From IMG/VR virus record IMGVR_UViG_3300036790_000282, positions 1-21,939 of that record: DNA of 21,939 bases; one strand, 5' to 3'. Below the pieces are notes generated by a model. The model searched no databases. It was not told the origin of the DNA and saw only the letters and a program-made list of their open reading frames with translations. The DNA comes from a virus. Shown one piece after another: positions 3,944 to 21,939 of the stretch. How positions within the stretch are numbered: the first letter of the stretch is position 1; each line of letters starts with the position of its first letter. The position numbers and the translations under genes were made by a program.

Positions 3944-3963
3944 AACACACAGGAGTGTGCAAT

Positions 3964-4425
3964 ATGGCAACAAGCAAAGGACAAGTACCGGGCATCGGCG
4001 CGGTTATCTCTTACGTTGGCGCGACCGGCGCGGACGATCCCACCCCATCCGTCATCGGTGAGCCGACCGACGCAAAGTTCAGTGGACGCAAGCGCGACGT
4101 CGCCGATAGCACATCGTTCGCTTCCGGCGGCATCAAAGGCAAGCTGGGTACAATCCTCGACCTCGGCCAGATGAGCGTGACGTGCGTCCGAGTTCCCGCC
4201 GACCCGGGTCAGGTCGCAGTCGTCACTGCAAACGTGAACGGTGGCTCCTACGACTTTACCGTCCAGCTCCCGCTCGATGCCGAGGCCGACCAGACCACGA
4301 AGGGCGATCTCATCACCATCAGTGGCATCGTGACCGAGGCGAACTTCGATGTGCCGTTGACGAAGGTCGGCGAGTTCACCTTCACGGTGGACATCACCGC
4401 CTATACGGTCACCCCAGGCAGCTAG
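3964..4425 (+). CDS. Major tail protein (tail tube)
   Basis: This is the tail tube subunit, 153 residues from ATG 3964, with AGGAG at 3951-3955. An in-frame upstream extension to 3862 overlaps the previous gene and is not needed. The sequence is rich in T, V, G and D with alternating beta strands. Features usual for siphovirus tube proteins are visible: an early IGEPTDAKFSGRKRDVADSTSF segment, LGTILDLGQMSVTC, and a C-terminal FTFTVDITAYTVTPGS. Position before the chaperone pair and tape measure gene fixes the role. The 76-base leader with a hairpin is the largest gap in the head-tail block after the capsid-connector gap and suggests separate regulation of this abundant protein. Confidence 0.88.
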   Translation: MATSKGQVPGIGAVISYVGATGADDPTPSVIGEPTDAKFSGRKRDVADSTSFASGGIKGKLGTILDLGQMSVTCVRVPADPGQVAVVTANVNGGSYDFTVQLPLDAEADQTTKGDLITISGIVTEANFDVPLTKVGEFTFTVDITAYTVTPGS

Positions 4426-4492
4426 ACCTCTTCCGGGTGCGGTGATCGTATGCGCCGCCCCATCCTGTAACTCACACACCAGAGGAGAAATC

Positions 4493-4867
4493 ATGTCCCG
4501 CAAAATCGCACAGAGCAGCGTCGATCCGACACTGCCGAAGACTCCCGTCACCATCGACGGCAAAACCTATGACCTGTGCCTTGACCTGGGTGCTTTGGCG
4601 GAGGCCGAGTCGGCACTCATTGCCGAAGGTCATCATGGCGTGAATCTGCTGATGGCACTCCCAGCACAGACGCTGTCCAGCACGCGCATCATCTTCGCCG
4701 CCGCGCTTCGGACGTTCCATCCTGAGATTGCCTTCGAAGATGCGAAGAAACTCCTCACGCTGGGCGCTCTTTATGACATCGCTCTGAAAATCCAGGAAGC
4801 CTGGCAAGCGGCCACTCCTGAGCCCGAGAAGACCCCATCGGACCCTTCGCAGCCCGGCGACGAGTAA
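4493..4867 (+). CDS. Tail assembly chaperone, first component (lambda gpG-like position)
   Basis: This protein has 124 residues from ATG 4493, which has AGAGGAG at 4481-4487. An in-frame ATG at 4442 lacks an SD and adds a sequence that does not look like the family. The protein has a short beta-type N-terminus (VTIDGKTYDLCLDLGALAEAESAL) like other tail chaperones, a helical middle (IIFAAALRTFHPEIAFEDAKKLL) and an acidic Pro-rich tail (PEPEKTPSDPSQPGDE). It should bind the tape measure protein and recruit tube subunits. In many siphophages this gene is joined to the next by a programmed frameshift; see the next entry for why that is unclear here. Confidence 0.8.
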   Translation: MSRKIAQSSVDPTLPKTPVTIDGKTYDLCLDLGALAEAESALIAEGHHGVNLLMALPAQTLSSTRIIFAAALRTFHPEIAFEDAKKLLTLGALYDIALKIQEAWQAATPEPEKTPSDPSQPGDE

Positions 4868-4896
4868 CCGTCGGGCCAGCTCCCACCCGGGAGCAG

Positions 4897-5220
4897 ATGT
4901 GGATCTCATGGTGGTCCTTCGCCACCGTGGACCTCGGCCTCAGTAATGAGCAGTTCTATTCGCTCACGCCGCGCATGCTGCACGCGCTCCGCAAGCGCCA
5001 CGAGCGGCAACAGGAGCATCAGGACGCGATGTTGGCTCAGCTCACCTCCTGCCTGGTCAACTTCAGTTATCGCGCCCCCGAGAAGCCGACCAAATGGCAG
5101 GATTTCATGCCCGGCGACAAGTACCAGAGTCAGTCGAGCAAGAAACCCCGACGCCTCACAAAGAAGCGCCGACACGAAATCGTTCAGAACTTCCGGTCCT
5201 GGTTTCCCCGCCAAAAATAA
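4897..5220 (+). CDS. Tail assembly chaperone, second component (gpT / TAC-like)
   Basis: This protein has 107 residues. The N-terminal part (WWSFATVDLGLSNEQFYSLTPRMLHALRKRH) resembles phage tail assembly chaperones that carry a P..F...TP.EL-type motif, and the C-terminus is strongly basic. The start at 4897 has GGGAG at 4889-4893 but only 3 bases of spacing, which is short. The frame is open back to 4822 and reads across the end of the first chaperone gene, so a -1 shift between 4822 and 4867 would fuse the two. I see no canonical X-XXY-YYZ heptamer there. Both routes remain possible. Position between the first chaperone and the gp10-like/tape measure genes supports the call. Confidence 0.65.
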   Translation: MWISWWSFATVDLGLSNEQFYSLTPRMLHALRKRHERQQEHQDAMLAQLTSCLVNFSYRAPEKPTKWQDFMPGDKYQSQSSKKPRRLTKKRRHEIVQNFRSWFPRQK

Positions 5221-5715
5221 ATGGACAACATCACCATGACGCTGGACTCGAAAGAGTTGCAGCAGAAGCTCGACCAGCTCAAGGGCGAGCAGCTTGAAAA
5301 GATCATGCGAAAGGCTCTGCGTGACGGGGCAAAGGTCTATCAGGCCGCTGTCTCCGAGGCTGCACCAGAGCGAGTCGAGACGACCGAGGGCTCTGATGCG
5401 CTCCCTCCTGGTGCTCTGAAGTCCGACGTCATCGTCACCAAAGTGCCCAGCCAGGGCGGCCCGATCTATGAGGTCTGGTTCGGCAAGCTCACCCGGCACG
5501 TGGCCTTCTGGGTCGAGTATGGCCACCGTCTCGTTCGCGGGGGTACCTCGCGTGTGCTCAAGTCAGGGAAGACCCGGGGCAAGGGACGCGAGGTCGGCCA
5601 AGTAAAACCGCATCCCTTCTTCCGCGATGCGTTCGAGCATTCCACGGACGCCGCCGCAAAAGCCATCTCGGATTCAATCACCAAACAAGTAGACCGCGCA
5701 TTCAAGGGTAAGTAA
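5221..5715 (+). CDS. HK97 gp10-like tail component
   Basis: This protein has 164 residues and matches the HK97 gp10 family: an N-terminal LDSKELQQKLDQL helix, LRDGAKVYQAAVSEAAP, a central strand region with GPIYEVWFGKLTRHVAFWVEYGH and the C-terminal KPHPFFRDAFEHS motif. The HPFFRDAF motif is the clearest family signature. The gene starts on the base after the stop of the preceding gene and has no SD, so it depends on translational coupling; an in-frame ATG at 5236 is an alternative. Placement after the chaperones rather than before the tail terminator is less common. Confidence 0.85.
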   Translation: MDNITMTLDSKELQQKLDQLKGEQLEKIMRKALRDGAKVYQAAVSEAAPERVETTEGSDALPPGALKSDVIVTKVPSQGGPIYEVWFGKLTRHVAFWVEYGHRLVRGGTSRVLKSGKTRGKGREVGQVKPHPFFRDAFEHSTDAAAKAISDSITKQVDRAFKGK

Positions 5716-7969: not shown

Positions 7970-8992
7970 ATGTCCACAGCTCCAATTGGTCGGCAAGAAG
8001 CGGTACGGGGTGTCACCAGCGGCGCGACGACGATCTCACAGAACGACACTCTCTTGGTGACCGGATGGTCAGCCGACGCCCAGGACGGCGCTCCCGTCCA
8101 GCGAGTGTCAATCCTGATTGACGGTGCAGCGGTCGGGAACGCCACGCTGGGAGGATCACGACCCGATGTGGCTGCGGCCTATAACAACTCCGCCTACCTC
8201 CACTCCGGCTGGAGCTTCAGTTATTCCGGTGCGGAACTAACTACGGGCACACACACAGTCACGACGGAAGCATACGACTCGCTCGGGCTCTCCGCCCAAC
8301 TAAGCGGCAGCTCCTCAATCACCGTAACTCAGGTGGGTGCAATGCAGCAGATCACAGTAGGGACCAGCACCTACACTCTCGTTTCGATGCCCTCGTCGCC
8401 TGCTCCGGCTGACATCTCCTTTGGGTATTCCGACACGGTTGCGACGGTGCCCAACCCCTTCACCCGGCAGATGCAGACGTATACCTGGCCGGGCGGCGAC
8501 CTGATTACCGTCACGGTCACTCTGCCCCCGATGACGACAGCGCAGAGCTTCGCATGGGAAGCATTCCTCGCCGAGCTGCGCGGCCAGGCGAACATCTTCC
8601 AGCTCGGTGATCCCCGCGTATCCGGCCCTCAGGGGACGGTCAACGGTAGCCCTCTGACGACACTCGCTTCTGCGGCTGGCGGGACGGGTAACGTCGCGAT
8701 GAGCACCACGCTCGGTGTGCAGGGCTTCGCGGATGGCGACTCACTCGCGGCGGGCGACTATGTCCAGGCCGGGTACCGGCTGTATCGAGTCCTGGAATCG
8801 ACCGGCCCCATCACCGGCGGACAAGCGGCGCTCACCATCTACCCTTCGATTCGGGCGACTCACGGGGACGGCACGGCGGTCGTCGTGCGGAATTGCAAGG
8901 GCGTCTTCCGGCTCGCCGGTAATGCCCGCCAGTTCCAGTCTTCACCAGGACGGCTCACTACCATGAGCTTCCAGGCCGTGGAGGTGAGATAA
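7970..8992 (+). CDS. Distal tail protein fused to an N-terminal Ig-like domain
   Basis: This protein has 340 residues in two parts. Residues 14-120 form a bacterial Ig-like domain of the type LLVTGWSADAQDGAPVQRV, SILIDGAAVGNATLG, SRPDVAAAY, SGWSFSY, then GTHTVTTEAYDSLG. Residues 128-340 resemble distal tail proteins that join the tube to the baseplate: TWPGGDLITVTVTLPPM, FAWEAFLAELRGQANIFQLGDPR, and a C-terminal MSFQAVEVR strand. Strong SD GGAG after the tape measure stop (TAAGGAG). The following gene starts in its stop codon (TAATG). An Ig domain at the N-terminus is an addition to the usual family plan and may decorate the tail end for surface adhesion. The distal-tail call rests on pattern and gene order. 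Confidence 0.72.
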   Translation: MSTAPIGRQEAVRGVTSGATTISQNDTLLVTGWSADAQDGAPVQRVSILIDGAAVGNATLGGSRPDVAAAYNNSAYLHSGWSFSYSGAELTTGTHTVTTEAYDSLGLSAQLSGSSSITVTQVGAMQQITVGTSTYTLVSMPSSPAPADISFGYSDTVATVPNPFTRQMQTYTWPGGDLITVTVTLPPMTTAQSFAWEAFLAELRGQANIFQLGDPRVSGPQGTVNGSPLTTLASAAGGTGNVAMSTTLGVQGFADGDSLAAGDYVQAGYRLYRVLESTGPITGGQAALTIYPSIRATHGDGTAVVVRNCKGVFRLAGNARQFQSSPGRLTTMSFQAVEVR

Positions 8993-9549
8993 TGCCGCGC
9001 TCGCTTAACTCCACAATGCTGGCCGGGTTGGTGAGCGGCAATATCTCCCCTGTCTACCTGGCTGACCTCACCTTTACGTCAGGCGTGTATCACGTCTGGT
9101 CCGGCGTGGGCAATCTGAGCTGGAACGGGAACGTCTATCAGGGCGTCGGCGACCTCGGTAATGTGAGCGATGTCGTCGAAGGACTGAGCGCCAGCCGCAC
9201 CGATGGGATGACCCTCACCCTCTCGGGCATCGACACCACACTCCTCAACGATTGCATGGCCGATGTTCAGGTCGGCGCTCCAGTCTATATCTGGTACGGC
9301 CTCTTCAGCGAGGGGCAGATACTCGGCGCTCCAGCAGAGCTGTTCGGCGGGATCATCGATAAGCCCTCCATCCAAATCGGTCCGGACACCATGACGATCA
9401 GCCTCGCGCTTGAAACGAGGATGATGATGTTCAAGCGACCCACGGCACGCCGCTACACGACAGCCGACCAACGCCGTCTCTATCCCACGGACACCGGCTT
9501 TAACTGGGTGGAAATCCTGAACGACATCGCCTTGCGCTGGGGGAGCTGA
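8992..9549 (+). CDS. Baseplate hub protein (DUF2163 / phage BR0599-like)
   Basis: This protein has 185 residues and starts in the stop codon of the distal tail gene. It shows the family pattern: VYLADLTFTSGVYHVWSGVGNLSWNGNVYQG near the N-terminus, SASRTDGMTLTLSGID, then ELFGGIIDKPSIQIGPDTMTISLALE, and the end R-Y-T-T-DQ-R-R-Y-P-TDTGF-VE-L-DIALRWG. In gene-transfer-agent-like and related siphophage tails this protein sits between the distal tail protein and the peptidase, which is exactly its place here. It likely forms part of the hub around the tip of the tube. Confidence 0.78.
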   Translation: MPRSLNSTMLAGLVSGNISPVYLADLTFTSGVYHVWSGVGNLSWNGNVYQGVGDLGNVSDVVEGLSASRTDGMTLTLSGIDTTLLNDCMADVQVGAPVYIWYGLFSEGQILGAPAELFGGIIDKPSIQIGPDTMTISLALETRMMMFKRPTARRYTTADQRRLYPTDTGFNWVEILNDIALRWGS

Positions 9550-10034: not shown

Positions 10035-13000
10035 TTGAGTAAGGCGCTCGTCGGTGCTATCGAAATCGGCGCAGCCGTAGGTCTGGCTGCGGCCACCGGC
10101 GGCGCTGGCGGCATTCTTGCCGTGGCCGAGCTGAAGGGCGGCGGCTTCCTTGCCGACCTGGCCGTGTCCGCGCTTATCTCCGGCGTGTCGATGGAAGCCG
10201 GGGCTGTTGCCGATGCCCTGACCCAGAACCGTGGCATGGGCATCACCACCCGTCAGCCTGCGTCGTATCGCCAGATCATTTACGGCACGCAGCGCGTCGG
10301 CGGGATCATGGTTTATTGCTCCACCACTGGCTCAAAGCACGACCAGTACAACATGGTCATCGTGCTGGCGACCCACGAGTGTGACGCGATCCAGAACCTT
10401 TACCTGGACGGGCGACGCGTAGCCTGGGAATCCGGTAGCGCGGGACAGGCGAAGAGTTCCCGCAACGGCTACACCTTCGGTGGAAGTGCTGCGGACCAGG
10501 ATCTCATCGGGCCAAATGGTCAACACTATAACTTCGGTTCACTCGTCTATTGCGAGGCTCGCTTCGGCGACCAAGCCGAAGACGACGTTATTTCCGGGCT
10601 TACAGCCAATGACCCTAACTGGGCCGCGACCGCGCAGGGAAGCCCATGGCTGGGCGGGTGCACCTATATATATCTTAAGCTCAAAGCAGATCCCAACATG
10701 TTTCCGCAGTTCCCGGAAATCCGCTTCACGATCAACGGGAAAAACAACATCTACGACCCTCGCACCGGTACCTCTGGCTTCACGACCAATTGGGCTCTGA
10801 TCGCCGCCGATGTGATCGTCGATCCTGTCTGGGGACTTGGCTCTAACACGGTCAATCAGGACCAGCTCGTCGCTGCGGCCAACGTGTGCGACGAGCAGGT
10901 AGCGCTCGCCGCCGGAGGAACCGAATCACGCCTCGCCTGTCATTGGCACTATGACACGAGCACGTCACCGGGCGATGTCCTCAATACCCTGATGACCACC
11001 AACGAGGGACGCATCTCTCGTGTCGGCGGCGAGTGGTTCATCTACCCGCCCTATTGGACAGGAGTCACTTTCAGCTTCGATGAGAATGCACTCCTCGGTC
11101 CCACCATCTCCTGGAACCCAAAGCGGTCTGTCAGTGACCTGGTGAACCGCGTCACCGGCACTTACATTGCGCCTAACTACCCCTACAACGTCGCGGGTAA
11201 TCTCTACGACGAGAACGGCTGGTACTCGGGCACGATCCAGAACAACTGGCCCTATGCCTTCCAGCCGACCAACTACCCTGATTTCGCCTGCGATCAGGAC
11301 CACGGCTACGGCACCGGTGTTGATGTCTACCTGACGCAGGACCTGGAAATTCCTCACCCGAAGGACCTGGTGCAGCCCACCTGTCTTTCGATCGCTCAGG
11401 CTCAGCGCACCGCAGCGGTGAGTCTCTTCCGCAACCGGCAGCAGGGTTCCGGGACTCTCATCATGAATATGTCGGCCTGGCAGATGGAACCTGGCGACAT
11501 CATGCAATTCAGCTTTGCGCCTCTGGGCTGGGTCAACAAGTATCTGGAGGTCAGCCTGCTCACCCTGAAGACAGGGCAGTCTCAGGACGCGAGCGGTAAC
11601 TCCGTCCCTTATCAGTATGTCGAGGTGCAGGTTCAGGAGGCCGATCCGTCTGTCTATGACTGGCAGACCAGCCTTGAGCTGAATGCCTATGATGTCGAGA
11701 CTGCGCCTCCAGCCACTCCCTACAATGTAGACGCTCCCACCGGCCTGACCATCGAGGATGACAGCACGACCCAGCTCGTGCTGCAGGACGGCACGACCAT
11801 GCCCCGCGTGCTCGTCACCTGGACTCCGCCCGAGGATACCTACGTTGCAAACGGTGGGCATATCGAGGTGCAGTATTCACTGGCAACCACGGCGAACAAG
11901 CCGATGCCAGAGATTCTCAATCCAGTTCACAATCCGAACGACAACACCTACTCCACAGGCTGGCTGGATGCGGGTAACTATCCAGGAATCGCCACGACTT
12001 GCTTCATCAATTCGATCAACGCCTCCCAGTACCAGAACATCACTGTGCAGGTGCGTGCGGTCCGCAGCAATGGAGCTTCCTCTGAGTGGGTGCAGGTCAA
12101 CAATCATGGTCTCAACACTTCCCAGCCCACCATCGCTGCGGGCGCGGTCACCTTTGCGGAAACTGGCGAAACTCTTGAAACGCTGGAGCCGGTGTCGGCT
12201 GCTTCCGCTGCGGTGGTCCTGACTGCCACGGGCAACCAGAGGAACCTTGTCCCGGACTCAGATCTCAAGTTCACATCCGCCTACTGGACCCTGAACGCGA
12301 GTATCCCCGTAGCCAATGCAGCCGGTGCCGATGGTGCCAATGCGTTCGTCTACACCGGCACGGGTTCCGCCTCGGGTTATCTCTACAATCGGTCCGCGCC
12401 CATCCCTGTCATTCCGGGGCAGTCTTACATCTTGTCCGGGTACATTGACGCCACGGCGGTCACCGCTGGCGACGATCCCTACTGGGGCGTGTATCACGCC
12501 GATATGTCCGCGATGATCGCGGGGCAGGTGCAGACGCCGGGGAGGAGCGGGCGAGTTTCTATCACGCTCACGATTCCATCTGGCGTCACCGAAGTGCGCG
12601 TGGTTTGTGATACCTCCGACTGCACCGTCACCAGTGGCAGCAAGCTGATCTTCTCGAATCCTCAGCTTGAGCTGGGCTCGGTGATGACGTCGTACAAGTC
12701 GAACAGTGCCGACGACACCAGTGATGGGTGGCTGCACGAAACCATGTCGTCTGAGGTGCAGTCCGCCATCGAGGCCGGAACCGGTCAGGTGCAGAACCTC
12801 GGCGGTGTCGCGGCATCGAGCATCACGCCGATCTCCACCCTCATGCCTGCACAGGCTGGGGCCGATGTGACGGCACAGGCGGGATTCGTCACGATCCTGA
12901 ATCCCAGCTTCGCAAATCAGGGCACAAACTGGTCGCTGCAGAGCGGATGGAGTATCCAGAGCGGGTATCAGCCACAGACCGGAAGCAACTATGTATCGCA

Positions 13001-14171
13001 GTTTAGTGCGTCGGCGACTTCTGCCTGCGTCAATCTGAGTAAGGTACCGTGTCAGGCCGGTGACGTACTGAGCGCCACGGCGATGGCGCTCATCAACACC
13101 AAGCCGACAGGCGCGGTCTGCGTCAGAATCAATTTCTACAATGCCTCCGGAACGGCCATTGCAACTATCGATGGCAACGACATCTCCGGCTCCACATTGA
13201 ACGCTGTCGTGTTCTCCCGCTGCACTGCCACAGCAGGAGCAGGGACGGCATATGCAAGCTTCGACTTTGCTGTGTTTACGACGGCGCACGCCATCGTCAA
13301 TCTCTATTCGATGACCTCCAACTTGAACTTGAGGTCACTGGACGAACTGCCCGATGGCCCGACCTACCAGCGTCCCCTGTACATCACCAATGGTGTTTAC
13401 ACCACATCGAAGGGGCTTGTTCAGCAGGGGTCCATCACCAACCTTGCCGAGGGTGGGGACGGCAGCGTGCTGTCGTACACCGCCAATAACAGCTCCATCG
13501 TGATGTCGTGGGTGGCTTTCTACATCTACGCCCCGGATGGGAACGTCTATACCTGCCCCGCCGGAAGCAAGACCTTCAGCAGCCTGGCGGCCAGTACCAA
13601 ATACTACTTCTGCGCCTACTACCATCTTGTCTCGAACGCGCTCGTGGTTTCATCCACCGGCACAGTGGCCTCGACCCTGCAATTCCAGGCTCAGACGGTG
13701 CAGGGCGACGGAAACGTCGGCGTCTGCATCGACTTCACCTGCTCGACCACCGGCTCCTCCGGACAGAGTGGAGGCACCAGCCCCGGAGGCGGAGGAGGGA
13801 GAGTCTGTTTCTCCCCCAACACTTTGGTTCTCGTTCAGCGGGATGGCGAGGAAGTCGCCGTCCCTATTGCAGAGGTACGACAGGGCGACCTGGTTACGAC
13901 GCTGCTCGGGACCCGGCGTCAGGTGTTCTATGTCTCGGCCACGCGGTATTGCGGCTCGATGCAGATCGTGCCAGAGGTCGGGCTCTCGACCCCGAACCAC
14001 CAGATGTGGGACGGCTCGGCGTGGGTGAATGCCTCGGTGCTCTATCCGACAGAGATTCCTTACGAGGGCACGATCCACAACCTGCACATCGACACCGAAA
14101 CCGATGATGAGCACAGCTACACGCTCGCCAATGGTCAGGTGGTCCACAACCTCTTTACGAATCCCGAATGA
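10035..14171 (+). CDS. Tail tip / central fibre protein (gpJ / megatron-like) with C-terminal Hint domain
   Basis: This protein has 1378 residues and starts at TTG 10035 with GAGGT a few bases upstream. Residues 4-60 are hydrophobic and Gly/Ala-rich, as in many tip proteins. The tip core spans about 60-540 (RQPASYRQIIYGTQRVGGIMVY, FPEIRFTINGKN, ISWNPKRSVSDLVNRVTGTY). A fibronectin-III-like domain lies at about 565-690 (PTGLTIEDD, VLVTWTPPEDTYVANGG). Two carbohydrate-binding-like jelly-roll segments follow at about 733-888 and 950-1091 (NLVPDSDLKFTSAYWTL; ILNPSFANQGTNWSLQSGW). A Gly/Ser/Pro-rich linker at about 1242-1257 leads to a Hint domain at 1258-1372 and a 6-residue tail LFTNPE. It is probably the host-recognition tip, and the Hint domain suggests self-cleavage or ligation. 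Its stop overlaps the next start (ATGA). Confidence 0.85.
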   Translation: MSKALVGAIEIGAAVGLAAATGGAGGILAVAELKGGGFLADLAVSALISGVSMEAGAVADALTQNRGMGITTRQPASYRQIIYGTQRVGGIMVYCSTTGSKHDQYNMVIVLATHECDAIQNLYLDGRRVAWESGSAGQAKSSRNGYTFGGSAADQDLIGPNGQHYNFGSLVYCEARFGDQAEDDVISGLTANDPNWAATAQGSPWLGGCTYIYLKLKADPNMFPQFPEIRFTINGKNNIYDPRTGTSGFTTNWALIAADVIVDPVWGLGSNTVNQDQLVAAANVCDEQVALAAGGTESRLACHWHYDTSTSPGDVLNTLMTTNEGRISRVGGEWFIYPPYWTGVTFSFDENALLGPTISWNPKRSVSDLVNRVTGTYIAPNYPYNVAGNLYDENGWYSGTIQNNWPYAFQPTNYPDFACDQDHGYGTGVDVYLTQDLEIPHPKDLVQPTCLSIAQAQRTAAVSLFRNRQQGSGTLIMNMSAWQMEPGDIMQFSFAPLGWVNKYLEVSLLTLKTGQSQDASGNSVPYQYVEVQVQEADPSVYDWQTSLELNAYDVETAPPATPYNVDAPTGLTIEDDSTTQLVLQDGTTMPRVLVTWTPPEDTYVANGGHIEVQYSLATTANKPMPEILNPVHNPNDNTYSTGWLDAGNYPGIATTCFINSINASQYQNITVQVRAVRSNGASSEWVQVNNHGLNTSQPTIAAGAVTFAETGETLETLEPVSAASAAVVLTATGNQRNLVPDSDLKFTSAYWTLNASIPVANAAGADGANAFVYTGTGSASGYLYNRSAPIPVIPGQSYILSGYIDATAVTAGDDPYWGVYHADMSAMIAGQVQTPGRSGRVSITLTIPSGVTEVRVVCDTSDCTVTSGSKLIFSNPQLELGSVMTSYKSNSADDTSDGWLHETMSSEVQSAIEAGTGQVQNLGGVAASSITPISTLMPAQAGADVTAQAGFVTILNPSFANQGTNWSLQSGWSIQSGYQPQTGSNYVSQFSASATSACVNLSKVPCQAGDVLSATAMALINTKPTGAVCVRINFYNASGTAIATIDGNDISGSTLNAVVFSRCTATAGAGTAYASFDFAVFTTAHAIVNLYSMTSNLNLRSLDELPDGPTYQRPLYITNGVYTTSKGLVQQGSITNLAEGGDGSVLSYTANNSSIVMSWVAFYIYAPDGNVYTCPAGSKTFSSLAASTKYYFCAYYHLVSNALVVSSTGTVASTLQFQAQTVQGDGNVGVCIDFTCSTTGSSGQSGGTSPGGGGGRVCFSPNTLVLVQRDGEEVAVPIAEVRQGDLVTTLLGTRRQVFYVSATRYCGSMQIVPEVGLSTPNHQMWDGSAWVNASVLYPTEIPYEGTIHNLHIDTETDDEHSYTLANGQVVHNLFTNPE
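13806..14150 (+). other. Hint (intein/BIL-type) autoprocessing domain within the tail tip protein
   Basis: This stretch encodes residues 1258-1372 of the tip protein. The first block has Cys1258 followed by FSPNTLVLVQRDGEEV and IAEVRQGDLV, the N-terminal splicing block (C-x4-T-x-V, then I-x-x-V-x-x-GD-V). TPNHQMWDGSAWVNASVL carries the T-x-x-H motif (T1319, H1322). The last block, IHNLHIDTETDDEHSYTLANG followed by QVVHN, ends in His1371-Asn1372. There is no endonuclease insert. The residue after Asn is Leu, not Cys/Ser/Thr, as in type A bacterial intein-like domains, so cleavage rather than normal splicing is expected. Cys, TxxH and HN are all present, so the domain looks active. Confidence 0.82.
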
Positions 14172-14521
14172 AGAAAATCTATGCAATCTCGACCGACGGC
14201 TCTCACCCGGCATCTCTCCTCGCAGCCTGGCAGAGCGATCACCGCACGGCTCTGCGAGCGTCCTGGTATCAGGACTCCGCCGATGGCATCTGCTGGCTGG
14301 TCTTCAAACCTCGGAATCTGCGGGAGCTGCTCACCATCCAGTCGATGCCTGGCCTGACGGTGCTGCCCGATCTTGAGGACCAGATGACCACACTGAGTCC
14401 TCATCATGTAGCTGCGATGCCGAGCGGTGCTCTCGTAACCACGGAGCACAACACGTATCAGGCAGCGTTGCGACTTTTCAATCACTATCAGTGGCACCCG
14501 TTTCATCCGCTCGAAAGGTAA
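14168..14521 (+). CDS. Hypothetical protein downstream of the tail tip
   Basis: This protein has 117 residues. Its ATG overlaps the stop of the tip gene (ATGA), so it is translated by coupling; there is no good SD. I do not recognise it. The sequence is neutral to basic with several Trp and His and no signal peptide or membrane segment. It has two short regular parts: an N-terminal KKIYAISTDGSHPASLLAAWQ and a C-terminal MPSGALVTTEHNTYQAALRLFNHYQWHPFH. Tight coupling to the Hint-bearing tip protein suggests a role with it, for example as assembly chaperone or in control of its processing, but nothing in the sequence proves this. Confidence 0.7.
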   Translation: MKKIYAISTDGSHPASLLAAWQSDHRTALRASWYQDSADGICWLVFKPRNLRELLTIQSMPGLTVLPDLEDQMTTLSPHHVAAMPSGALVTTEHNTYQAALRLFNHYQWHPFHPLER

Positions 14522-21021: not shown

Positions 21022-21179
21022 CGCGCACCTCCGCGCCGGAAGATGACGTTCCTGTGAGCCTGCATCACGCTTCTGCTCCTCTCACCCTGATCTGGAGCAC
21101 AAGGCGGAAGTCGGCGAAGTTCGACCTGCATCCGGGAGATGCGGCGGCGAGCGCTGCGACTGCGAGTGATGATGGTCAT
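21018..21179 (-). CDS. 53-residue Arg-rich protein between integrase and the 106-aa gene
   Basis: The ORF reads MTIITRSRSARRRISRMQ, then VELRRLPPCAPDQGERSRS, and ends NVIFRRGGAR. GGGAGG is 6 bases before the ATG, an excellent SD. Its ATG overlaps the integrase stop (ATGA) and its stop overlaps the ATG of the 106-aa gene (ATGA). Spacing, SD and overlaps together make translation likely despite the short length. About a quarter of residues are Arg, so an RNA- or DNA-binding role, including as an excision factor, is conceivable. No family is recognised. Confidence 0.6.
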   Translation of the reverse strand: MTIITRSRSARRRISRMQVELRRLPPCAPDQGERSRSVMQAHRNVIFRRGGAR

Positions 21180-21939
21180 CGCGAACCTCCCTCGTCGCCC
21201 GCCAGCGTGACACTCGCCCCCATCCGTCCCATCGCCTCGATCATCTTCCGCTCAAGCCGATGCTGGCGCTGCTTCACCCAGGGTGAGTAGTACCTCTCTG
21301 TGATACGGATGGACGCGTGGCCCAGCATCTTGCTCACGTCCTCAAGCGGCACGCCAGCCAGCAGCATCTCGACGGCGAACGTGTCGCGCAGCATGTGAGA
21401 GTGGAATTCCAGGGGCTTCCCGTGCTCATCCCGGAATGAAAGATGCTTTTCGTTCAAACGCGCGATCTTCTGCGTCCAGGTGGTGGAGAGAGAGGCCAGA
21501 GTGCAGGTCCTCGACCAGAAGAAGTAGTCCGCGTGGATGCCGGGTCGAGCAGGAAGATCATTGAGCGCCCGAACGACATGATCGGGAACGATGACGCTGA
21601 TCGGGCGGCCCGACTTCTTCATCCTCGTCGTGAGCCGGTTCCCGACGATGGCCCGGCGTGGCAGGGCGGCGGCGTCGCCGATCCGGAGCCCGGTCCAGCG
21701 CATGAGGAGGAACAGCGCACGTAGCTCGTGCCCCAAGCGGTCGCACTCGCGCCGCTGCCCCTCGTCGTACTGATCGGTCGCGGCGAGGAGTTCCTCGAAC
21801 TGCTCCTGCGTGAGCGGTAGAGTCTGCTTCTGGTCGCCTTCGATCGCCTCCAGGTGATCGCTTGGATCGCGCTCGATGTGTCGGAGCTTCGTCGCCCACC
21901 AGAAGAATTGCCGCAGGTGACCCAGGAACGCCTTCTGGG
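21176..21939 (-). CDS. int: Tyrosine-recombinase integrase (N-terminus beyond the window)
   Basis: About 254 C-terminal residues are present; the frame is open to the right edge. The core-binding domain end reads LGHLRQFFWWATKLRHIERDPSDHLE. Counting from the Met at 21736, the catalytic residues are R18 (TGLRIGD), K40/41 (RMKKSG), H114 and R117 (HMLR), H140 (LGH) and Y149 (TERYY), i.e. the full R-K-H-R-H-Y set. The C-terminal segment MLLAGVPLEDVSKMLGHASIR is standard for phage integrases. It should recombine attP with a host tRNA-gene att site. The gene reads toward the attachment region 1.3 kb away and is the first of at least four tightly coupled genes. Confidence 0.93.
   Translation of the reverse strand, partial: QKAFLGHLRQFFWWATKLRHIERDPSDHLEAIEGDQKQTLPLTQEQFEELLAATDQYDEGQRRECDRLGHELRALFLLMRWTGLRIGDAAALPRRAIVGNRLTTRMKKSGRPISVIVPDHVVRALNDLPARPGIHADYFFWSRTCTLASLSTTWTQKIARLNEKHLSFRDEHGKPLEFHSHMLRDTFAVEMLLAGVPLEDVSKMLGHASIRITERYYSPWVKQRQHRLERKMIEAMGRMGASVTLAGDEGGSR

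Follow-up and report, generated by a model that had tools for sequence, protein, structure and literature searches.

The tail-tip protein encoded in a 21,939-nucleotide soil phage sequence (the window; positions 1 to 21,939 of IMG/VR record IMGVR_UViG_3300036790_000282) ends in a complete Hint domain, confirmed by profile matches and a predicted structure, and it is followed directly by a small gene whose relatives travel with such domains. Self-processing Hint domains are known from inteins, hedgehog, and bacterial secreted proteins; hedgehog joins cholesterol, and in bacterial secreted proteins Hint domains often precede toxins. We propose, with confidence just above even, that the window's domain is an autoprocessing C-terminal module, similar to A-type bacterial intein-like (BIL) domains, within an exchangeable host-recognition cassette that includes a dedicated partner gene. 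The proposal draws on fold, catalytic residues, conservation, cassette swapping, and partner co-occurrence, from which we infer the chemistry, its timing, and the role of the partner. Our search of the open-access literature found no published account of a Hint-ended phage tail tip, nor of a Hint cassette with a small partner gene. Where open-access papers mention phages together with a "Hint domain", the subject is terminases, helicases, a nicotinamide phosphoribosyltransferase, or homing elements, and in no case tails.

The J-like tip gene (10035..14171, + strand, TTG start) encodes 1378 amino acids, and the first part of its product matches PHROG families phrog_5616 (tail fiber, E 1.9e-51) and phrog_31 (central tail fiber J, E 5.7e-20). 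Its 3' end encodes, in order, a beta-rich domain (13425..13751, + strand; borders approximate, set by homology to loci L147/L171), the Gly/Ser/Pro-rich linker GSSGQSGGTSPGGGGGRV (13752..13805, + strand), and the 115-residue Hint domain (residues 1258-1372, 13806..14150, + strand), which was assigned from sequence, profile matches, predicted structure, and catalytic residues. The codons place Cys1 at C1258 (13806-13808), the Thr-x-x-His motif at T1319-P-N-H1322 (T1319 13989-13991, H1322 13998-14000), and the terminal pair at His1371-Asn1372 (14145-14150), all on the + strand. Only the C-extein LFTNPE follows (14151..14168, + strand), with Leu at +1 instead of a nucleophile, before the stop codon (14169-14171); similarly short tails occur in relatives. 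The partner gene (14168..14521, + strand, 117 amino acids) starts at the ATG at 14168, overlapping the tip-gene stop as ATGA, and belongs to a new, small family seen exclusively behind Hint-ended tail genes. The coordinates and residues named in an earlier, sequence-only reading of this DNA were exact throughout, and the absence of an endonuclease from the domain, also claimed there, is supported. Elsewhere in the window, an ORF on the - strand (21176-21937) resembles a tyrosine recombinase by eye (HxLRxxFA...GHxxIxxTxxYY), which suggests a temperate phage or prophage.

That reading had taken the tip C-terminus for a complete Hint domain and had named profile searches and structure prediction as checks; both gave a Hint domain. 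Searched alone, the domain matched Pfam Vint (E 9e-6, 26.0 bits, below the cutoff of 27), Pfam Hint_2 (E 0.0036), and the NCBIfam intein C-terminus model TIGR01443 (16.3 bits, over the cutoff of 15.6). No other model was among the matches listed, and we identified no BIL-A-specific model in the libraries. A relative, L137, reached 30.5 bits against Vint (PF14623). The AlphaFold model built from a nine-sequence input was confident (pLDDT 92.4, pTM 0.85). Its top-ranked structural match was Vint 8r2c (Z 14.0, 113/121 residues). Several inteins came within 1 of this score (Z up to 13.2; DnaB and DnaE about 13), and hedgehog 1at0 scored Z 12.4. These alignments span residues 1-117 of the model and begin with Cys1 at its first residue.

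Relatives were collected from Acidobacteriaceae genomes and viral contigs by searches with the Hint domain itself, in sequence collections that are metagenome-heavy and fragmentary. The relatives sit at the ends of tail genes, for the most part in acidobacterial phage DNA. They form two types, whose kinship shows in profile comparison (E 2e-12) and in the fold. Type 1, to which the window belongs, carries Thr-x-x-His and comprises 14 distinct sequences. Eleven columns, including Cys1, Thr, His, His, and Asn, are invariant across 13 of these, with a bias in the Cys1 column because some viral loci were retrieved by patterns containing Cys1; the fourteenth sequence (L208), retrieved by a profile search that prescribed no Cys pattern, also keeps all five catalytic residues. 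The full set of Hint catalytic residues reported from the window sequence thus recurs throughout the type. The residue after Asn, read earlier as a non-nucleophile, is other than Cys, Ser, or Thr in all 13 readable type-1 tails (L, L, A, L, Y, G, Q, L, L, Y, L, A, Y; the L146 tail is cut off). Type-1 tails measure 3-6 residues, with one exception of 26 (L152); taking both types together, 3-9 residues follow the domain except in L152. A Gly-rich stretch occupies the linker position in nearly all Hint relatives.

Type 2, with 12 distinct sequences in the alignment and three found later, has Glu in place of the block-B His throughout (Thr-x-x-Glu), and Cys1 (followed by Pro) and the His-Asn pair are invariant. 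Its predicted structure is again a confident Hint fold (pLDDT 90.2; Z 14.5 to the MchDnaB-1 intein). Across close pairs, dN/dS within the domain was 0.09-0.13 in type 1 and 0.06-0.07 in type 2, and by this measure the Hint domain is under purifying selection in both types (0.06-0.13). All type-2 proteins have a terminal Cys or Ser, 5-8 residues past His-Asn, compared with 10% of Hint-less tips, although kinship among the sequences weakens a simple probability. The ends are YNIMPNPC, TFILPC, PILPRS (twice), QIIES, FIPYC, YPILPC, NVALPAC, GMIGS, TQMISSS, NQMISSS, MRMDPC, AIIMSC, and QEIGS (genes compared: L003, L139, L140, L145, L154, L155, L179-L183, L186, L189, L197, and L204). This terminal Cys/Ser might play a role in a changed chemistry.

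Hint-bearing proteins span several tail families: phrog_5616/J, phrog_1101, phrog_2048, and the virion protein phrog_3287. Between the window tip and the protein of L171, only residues of about 1131-1372 are alike (38% identity, E 2e-29) and the remainder is unrelated; against L147 and L171, homology is limited to the beta-domain, linker, and Hint (E 4e-28 and 2e-29). Type-2 proteins behave similarly: L154 and L182 are 69% identical across their final ~256 residues and show no significant likeness in the rest, and the pairs L003/L181 and L179/L181 have the same C-terminal-only likeness. Because homology between otherwise unrelated tail proteins is confined to this region, the region is a swapped cassette, whose moving unit, as delimited by these alignments, is the beta-domain, the Gly linker, and the Hint domain. 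The L152 locus carries a type-1 Hint in a phrog_2048 tail gene (3960-5249) that is the counterpart of window 8992-9549; 26 Gly-rich residues follow that Hint, and the partner gene is absent. The sequence-only interpretation is partly supported, and it had missed both the exchangeable cassette common to unrelated tail proteins and the second type without the block-B His.

Counterparts of the partner gene lie directly behind most Hint genes, with intergenic gaps of -3 to 15; none follows the Hint genes of L136/L151, L152, and L172. We also weighed a programmed frameshift that would fuse the partner to the Hint and rejected it, as the gap varies over this range with no constant frame. Two partner-family profiles gave 31 matches among 17,883 ORFs, all immediately behind Hint-ended genes, and none at the 103 Hint-less tip loci (0/103). 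A reverse search with the type-2 partner alone retrieved three new copies (L189, L192/L197, and L204), each behind a type-2 Hint-ended gene. In leave-one-out tests, omitted members headed the untrained ORFs; so did the window's partner, though with a weak score (E 0.07). Alignment with hhalign did not link the two families (E 0.002, probability 5%), although they take adjacent ranks in profile searches. On this co-occurrence, the small gene at 14168-14521 is part of the Hint cassette. The partner family had no match in Pfam, PHROG, or the solved structures of the PDB. In genome G029 (L192:706-2223), the partner is enlarged to 505 amino acids through an insertion at residues 55-287 that resembles a separate 386-amino-acid gene in L155 (7214-8371), downstream of the cassette in another phage; this resemblance suggests a virion part rather than an inhibitor. 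Of the two roles proposed earlier for the downstream gene, partner or inhibitor, the former agrees with its co-conservation with Hint genes, and the latter fared less well: judged from this one enlarged partner, a chaperone or an accompanying tail component is the likelier role.

The cassette is rare among tips of this family. Across viral and bacterial contigs, a search with the tip body returned about 127 loci, nearly all without Hint; of the 105 with a complete tip and downstream room, only L003 and its duplicate L010 carried one. The tips of L106, L120, and L102 contain repeated SGGGGSGA...GSGYT..P.V units in the tip body, some of them splitting a conserved domain. Searches of GenBank phages by tblastn with the Hints of the window, L003, and L148 gave no convincing match, and a plasmid search with Hint returned only P-type ATPases and unrelated matches. 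A viral contig scan with the window Hint as a single sequence found no match, whereas alignment-based scans found relatives. In a phylum-wide sample, the first Hint alignment retrieved ordinary inteins and toxin-type Hints but no tail proteins, and the partner profile had no match; in family-level samples of Acidobacteriaceae, searches with both Hint and partner gave matches. The cassette thus looks concentrated in phages of Acidobacteriaceae, in small samples and with the host assignment taken from relatives. BFVD also holds predicted viral proteins with a Hint fold, some of them named only "Hint domain containing protein", from uncultured Caudovirales.

Several known systems resemble parts of this arrangement. 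A-type BIL domains keep His-Asn, lack the +1 nucleophile, and yield mainly cleaved rather than spliced products (PMC7664689, PMC7765530). The window domain shares with them Cys1, Thr-x-x-His, the terminal His-Asn, independence of a +1 nucleophile, and a location in variable proteins, bacterial in their case; it differs in lying at the very end of a phage tail protein with a short tail, in having a dedicated partner gene, and in being nearer to Vint by sequence. Vint, its best Pfam match and top-ranked structural match (PF14623; 8r2c), has been reported from eukaryotic proteins as a fusion with a VWA domain (PMC2362128); the window tip has no VWA match, its N-terminal part being J-like, and its score lies below the Pfam cutoff. 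Hedgehog Hog (1at0) is likewise a C-terminal Hint of the same fold, one that detaches the N-terminal part through a thioester, but the window domain lacks a sterol-recognition region (six residues follow) and retains the terminal His-Asn. Inteins such as DnaB and DnaE share the fold and catalytic residues; here, by contrast, there is no +1 Cys/Ser/Thr, no endonuclease, and no insertion within a conserved host protein. Unlike polymorphic toxins with Hint, the window protein has no toxin domain past it. Among phages, the intramolecular chaperone domains of K1F and T5 tailspikes and fibres are C-terminal and self-cleaved, and fibre-chaperone modules are swapped among unrelated phages (PMC10579305). 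Those domains cleave after Ser and have a different fold, whereas here the cutting domain would be the Hint.

In the mechanism that we favour, Cys1258, aided by Thr1319 and His1322, would form a thioester from the bond that follows the Gly-rich linker, and cyclization of Asn1372 would remove the LFTNPE tail. With no +1 nucleophile, the thioester would be resolved by water or an outside nucleophile, leaving the tip with a new Gly-rich C-terminus and releasing the Hint. Tips of the same family in L073, L076, and L117 lack Hint and end in a bare Gly-rich C-terminal tail, and this natural ending makes such a processed end plausible for the window tip. Beta-domain, linker, Hint, and small gene together form one cassette, probably for host recognition, that is swapped between unrelated tail proteins by phages of Acidobacteriaceae and related phages. 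The partner would most likely accompany the tip as a chaperone or as a further component, binding the Hint before or after processing. Counting against this reading, type 2 lacks the block-B His and keeps cassette and partner, so the full chemistry is not needed everywhere; the Hint genes without a partner, the weak score of the window's own partner, and the retrieval bias at Cys1 weigh against it as well.

The main rival builds on this second type. The Hint could be a non-catalytic structural domain that serves as a dock for the partner, itself then a part of the virion. Type 2 would fit, since it has Glu at the block-B His yet preserves the fold (pLDDT 90, Z 14.5), purifying selection, and the partner, and the insertion in the G029 partner, whose sequence another phage carries as a gene of its own downstream of the cassette, is what one would expect of an exposed virion part. 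A pure dock, however, has no need of the Cys1 and His-Asn that are invariant in both types, or of all five catalytic residues in type 1, and we regard this explanation as rather unlikely. Nor do we give much weight to a covalent role, in which the thioester would pass to a nucleophile other than water and the exchangeable cassette would join the tip to the partner, another tail protein, or a group on the host surface, with the Glu-for-His lineage and its C-terminal Cys/Ser representing an altered chemistry. The complete acyl-shift residues, the absent +1 nucleophile, the co-conserved partner gene, and the C-terminal placement of the Hint in a J-like tip protein would all suit such a bond. Against it, no acceptor was identified, no extension like a sterol-recognition region follows the Hint, and no common nucleophile was recognised in the partner; we consider it improbable.

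Two further explanations fare considerably worse. A small gene behind a Hint gene recalls the polymorphic toxins, with Hint freeing a C-terminal effector and the next gene encoding an immunity protein, and Hint domains do often precede toxins in bacterial secreted proteins. Yet the 3-9 residues past the Hint (26 in L152) leave no effector domain, and the carriers are tail proteins, making this scenario very unlikely. The window's Vint score, just below the curated Pfam cutoff, might in turn hint at a decayed intein or a functionless chance likeness. The confident fold match, dN/dS of about 0.1, the conserved context and partner, and the position at the protein end instead of inside a conserved enzyme site speak so clearly against decay or chance that we hardly credit it.

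A Hint domain at the tail tip together with a travelling partner gene suggests that phages have an undescribed means to complete or arm the structure with which they contact the host. Cleavage by the Hint would represent a new maturation route for receptor-binding tips, with a counterpart in the chaperone domains that tailspikes remove by self-cleavage, and ligation would provide a covalent tool where phage meets host.
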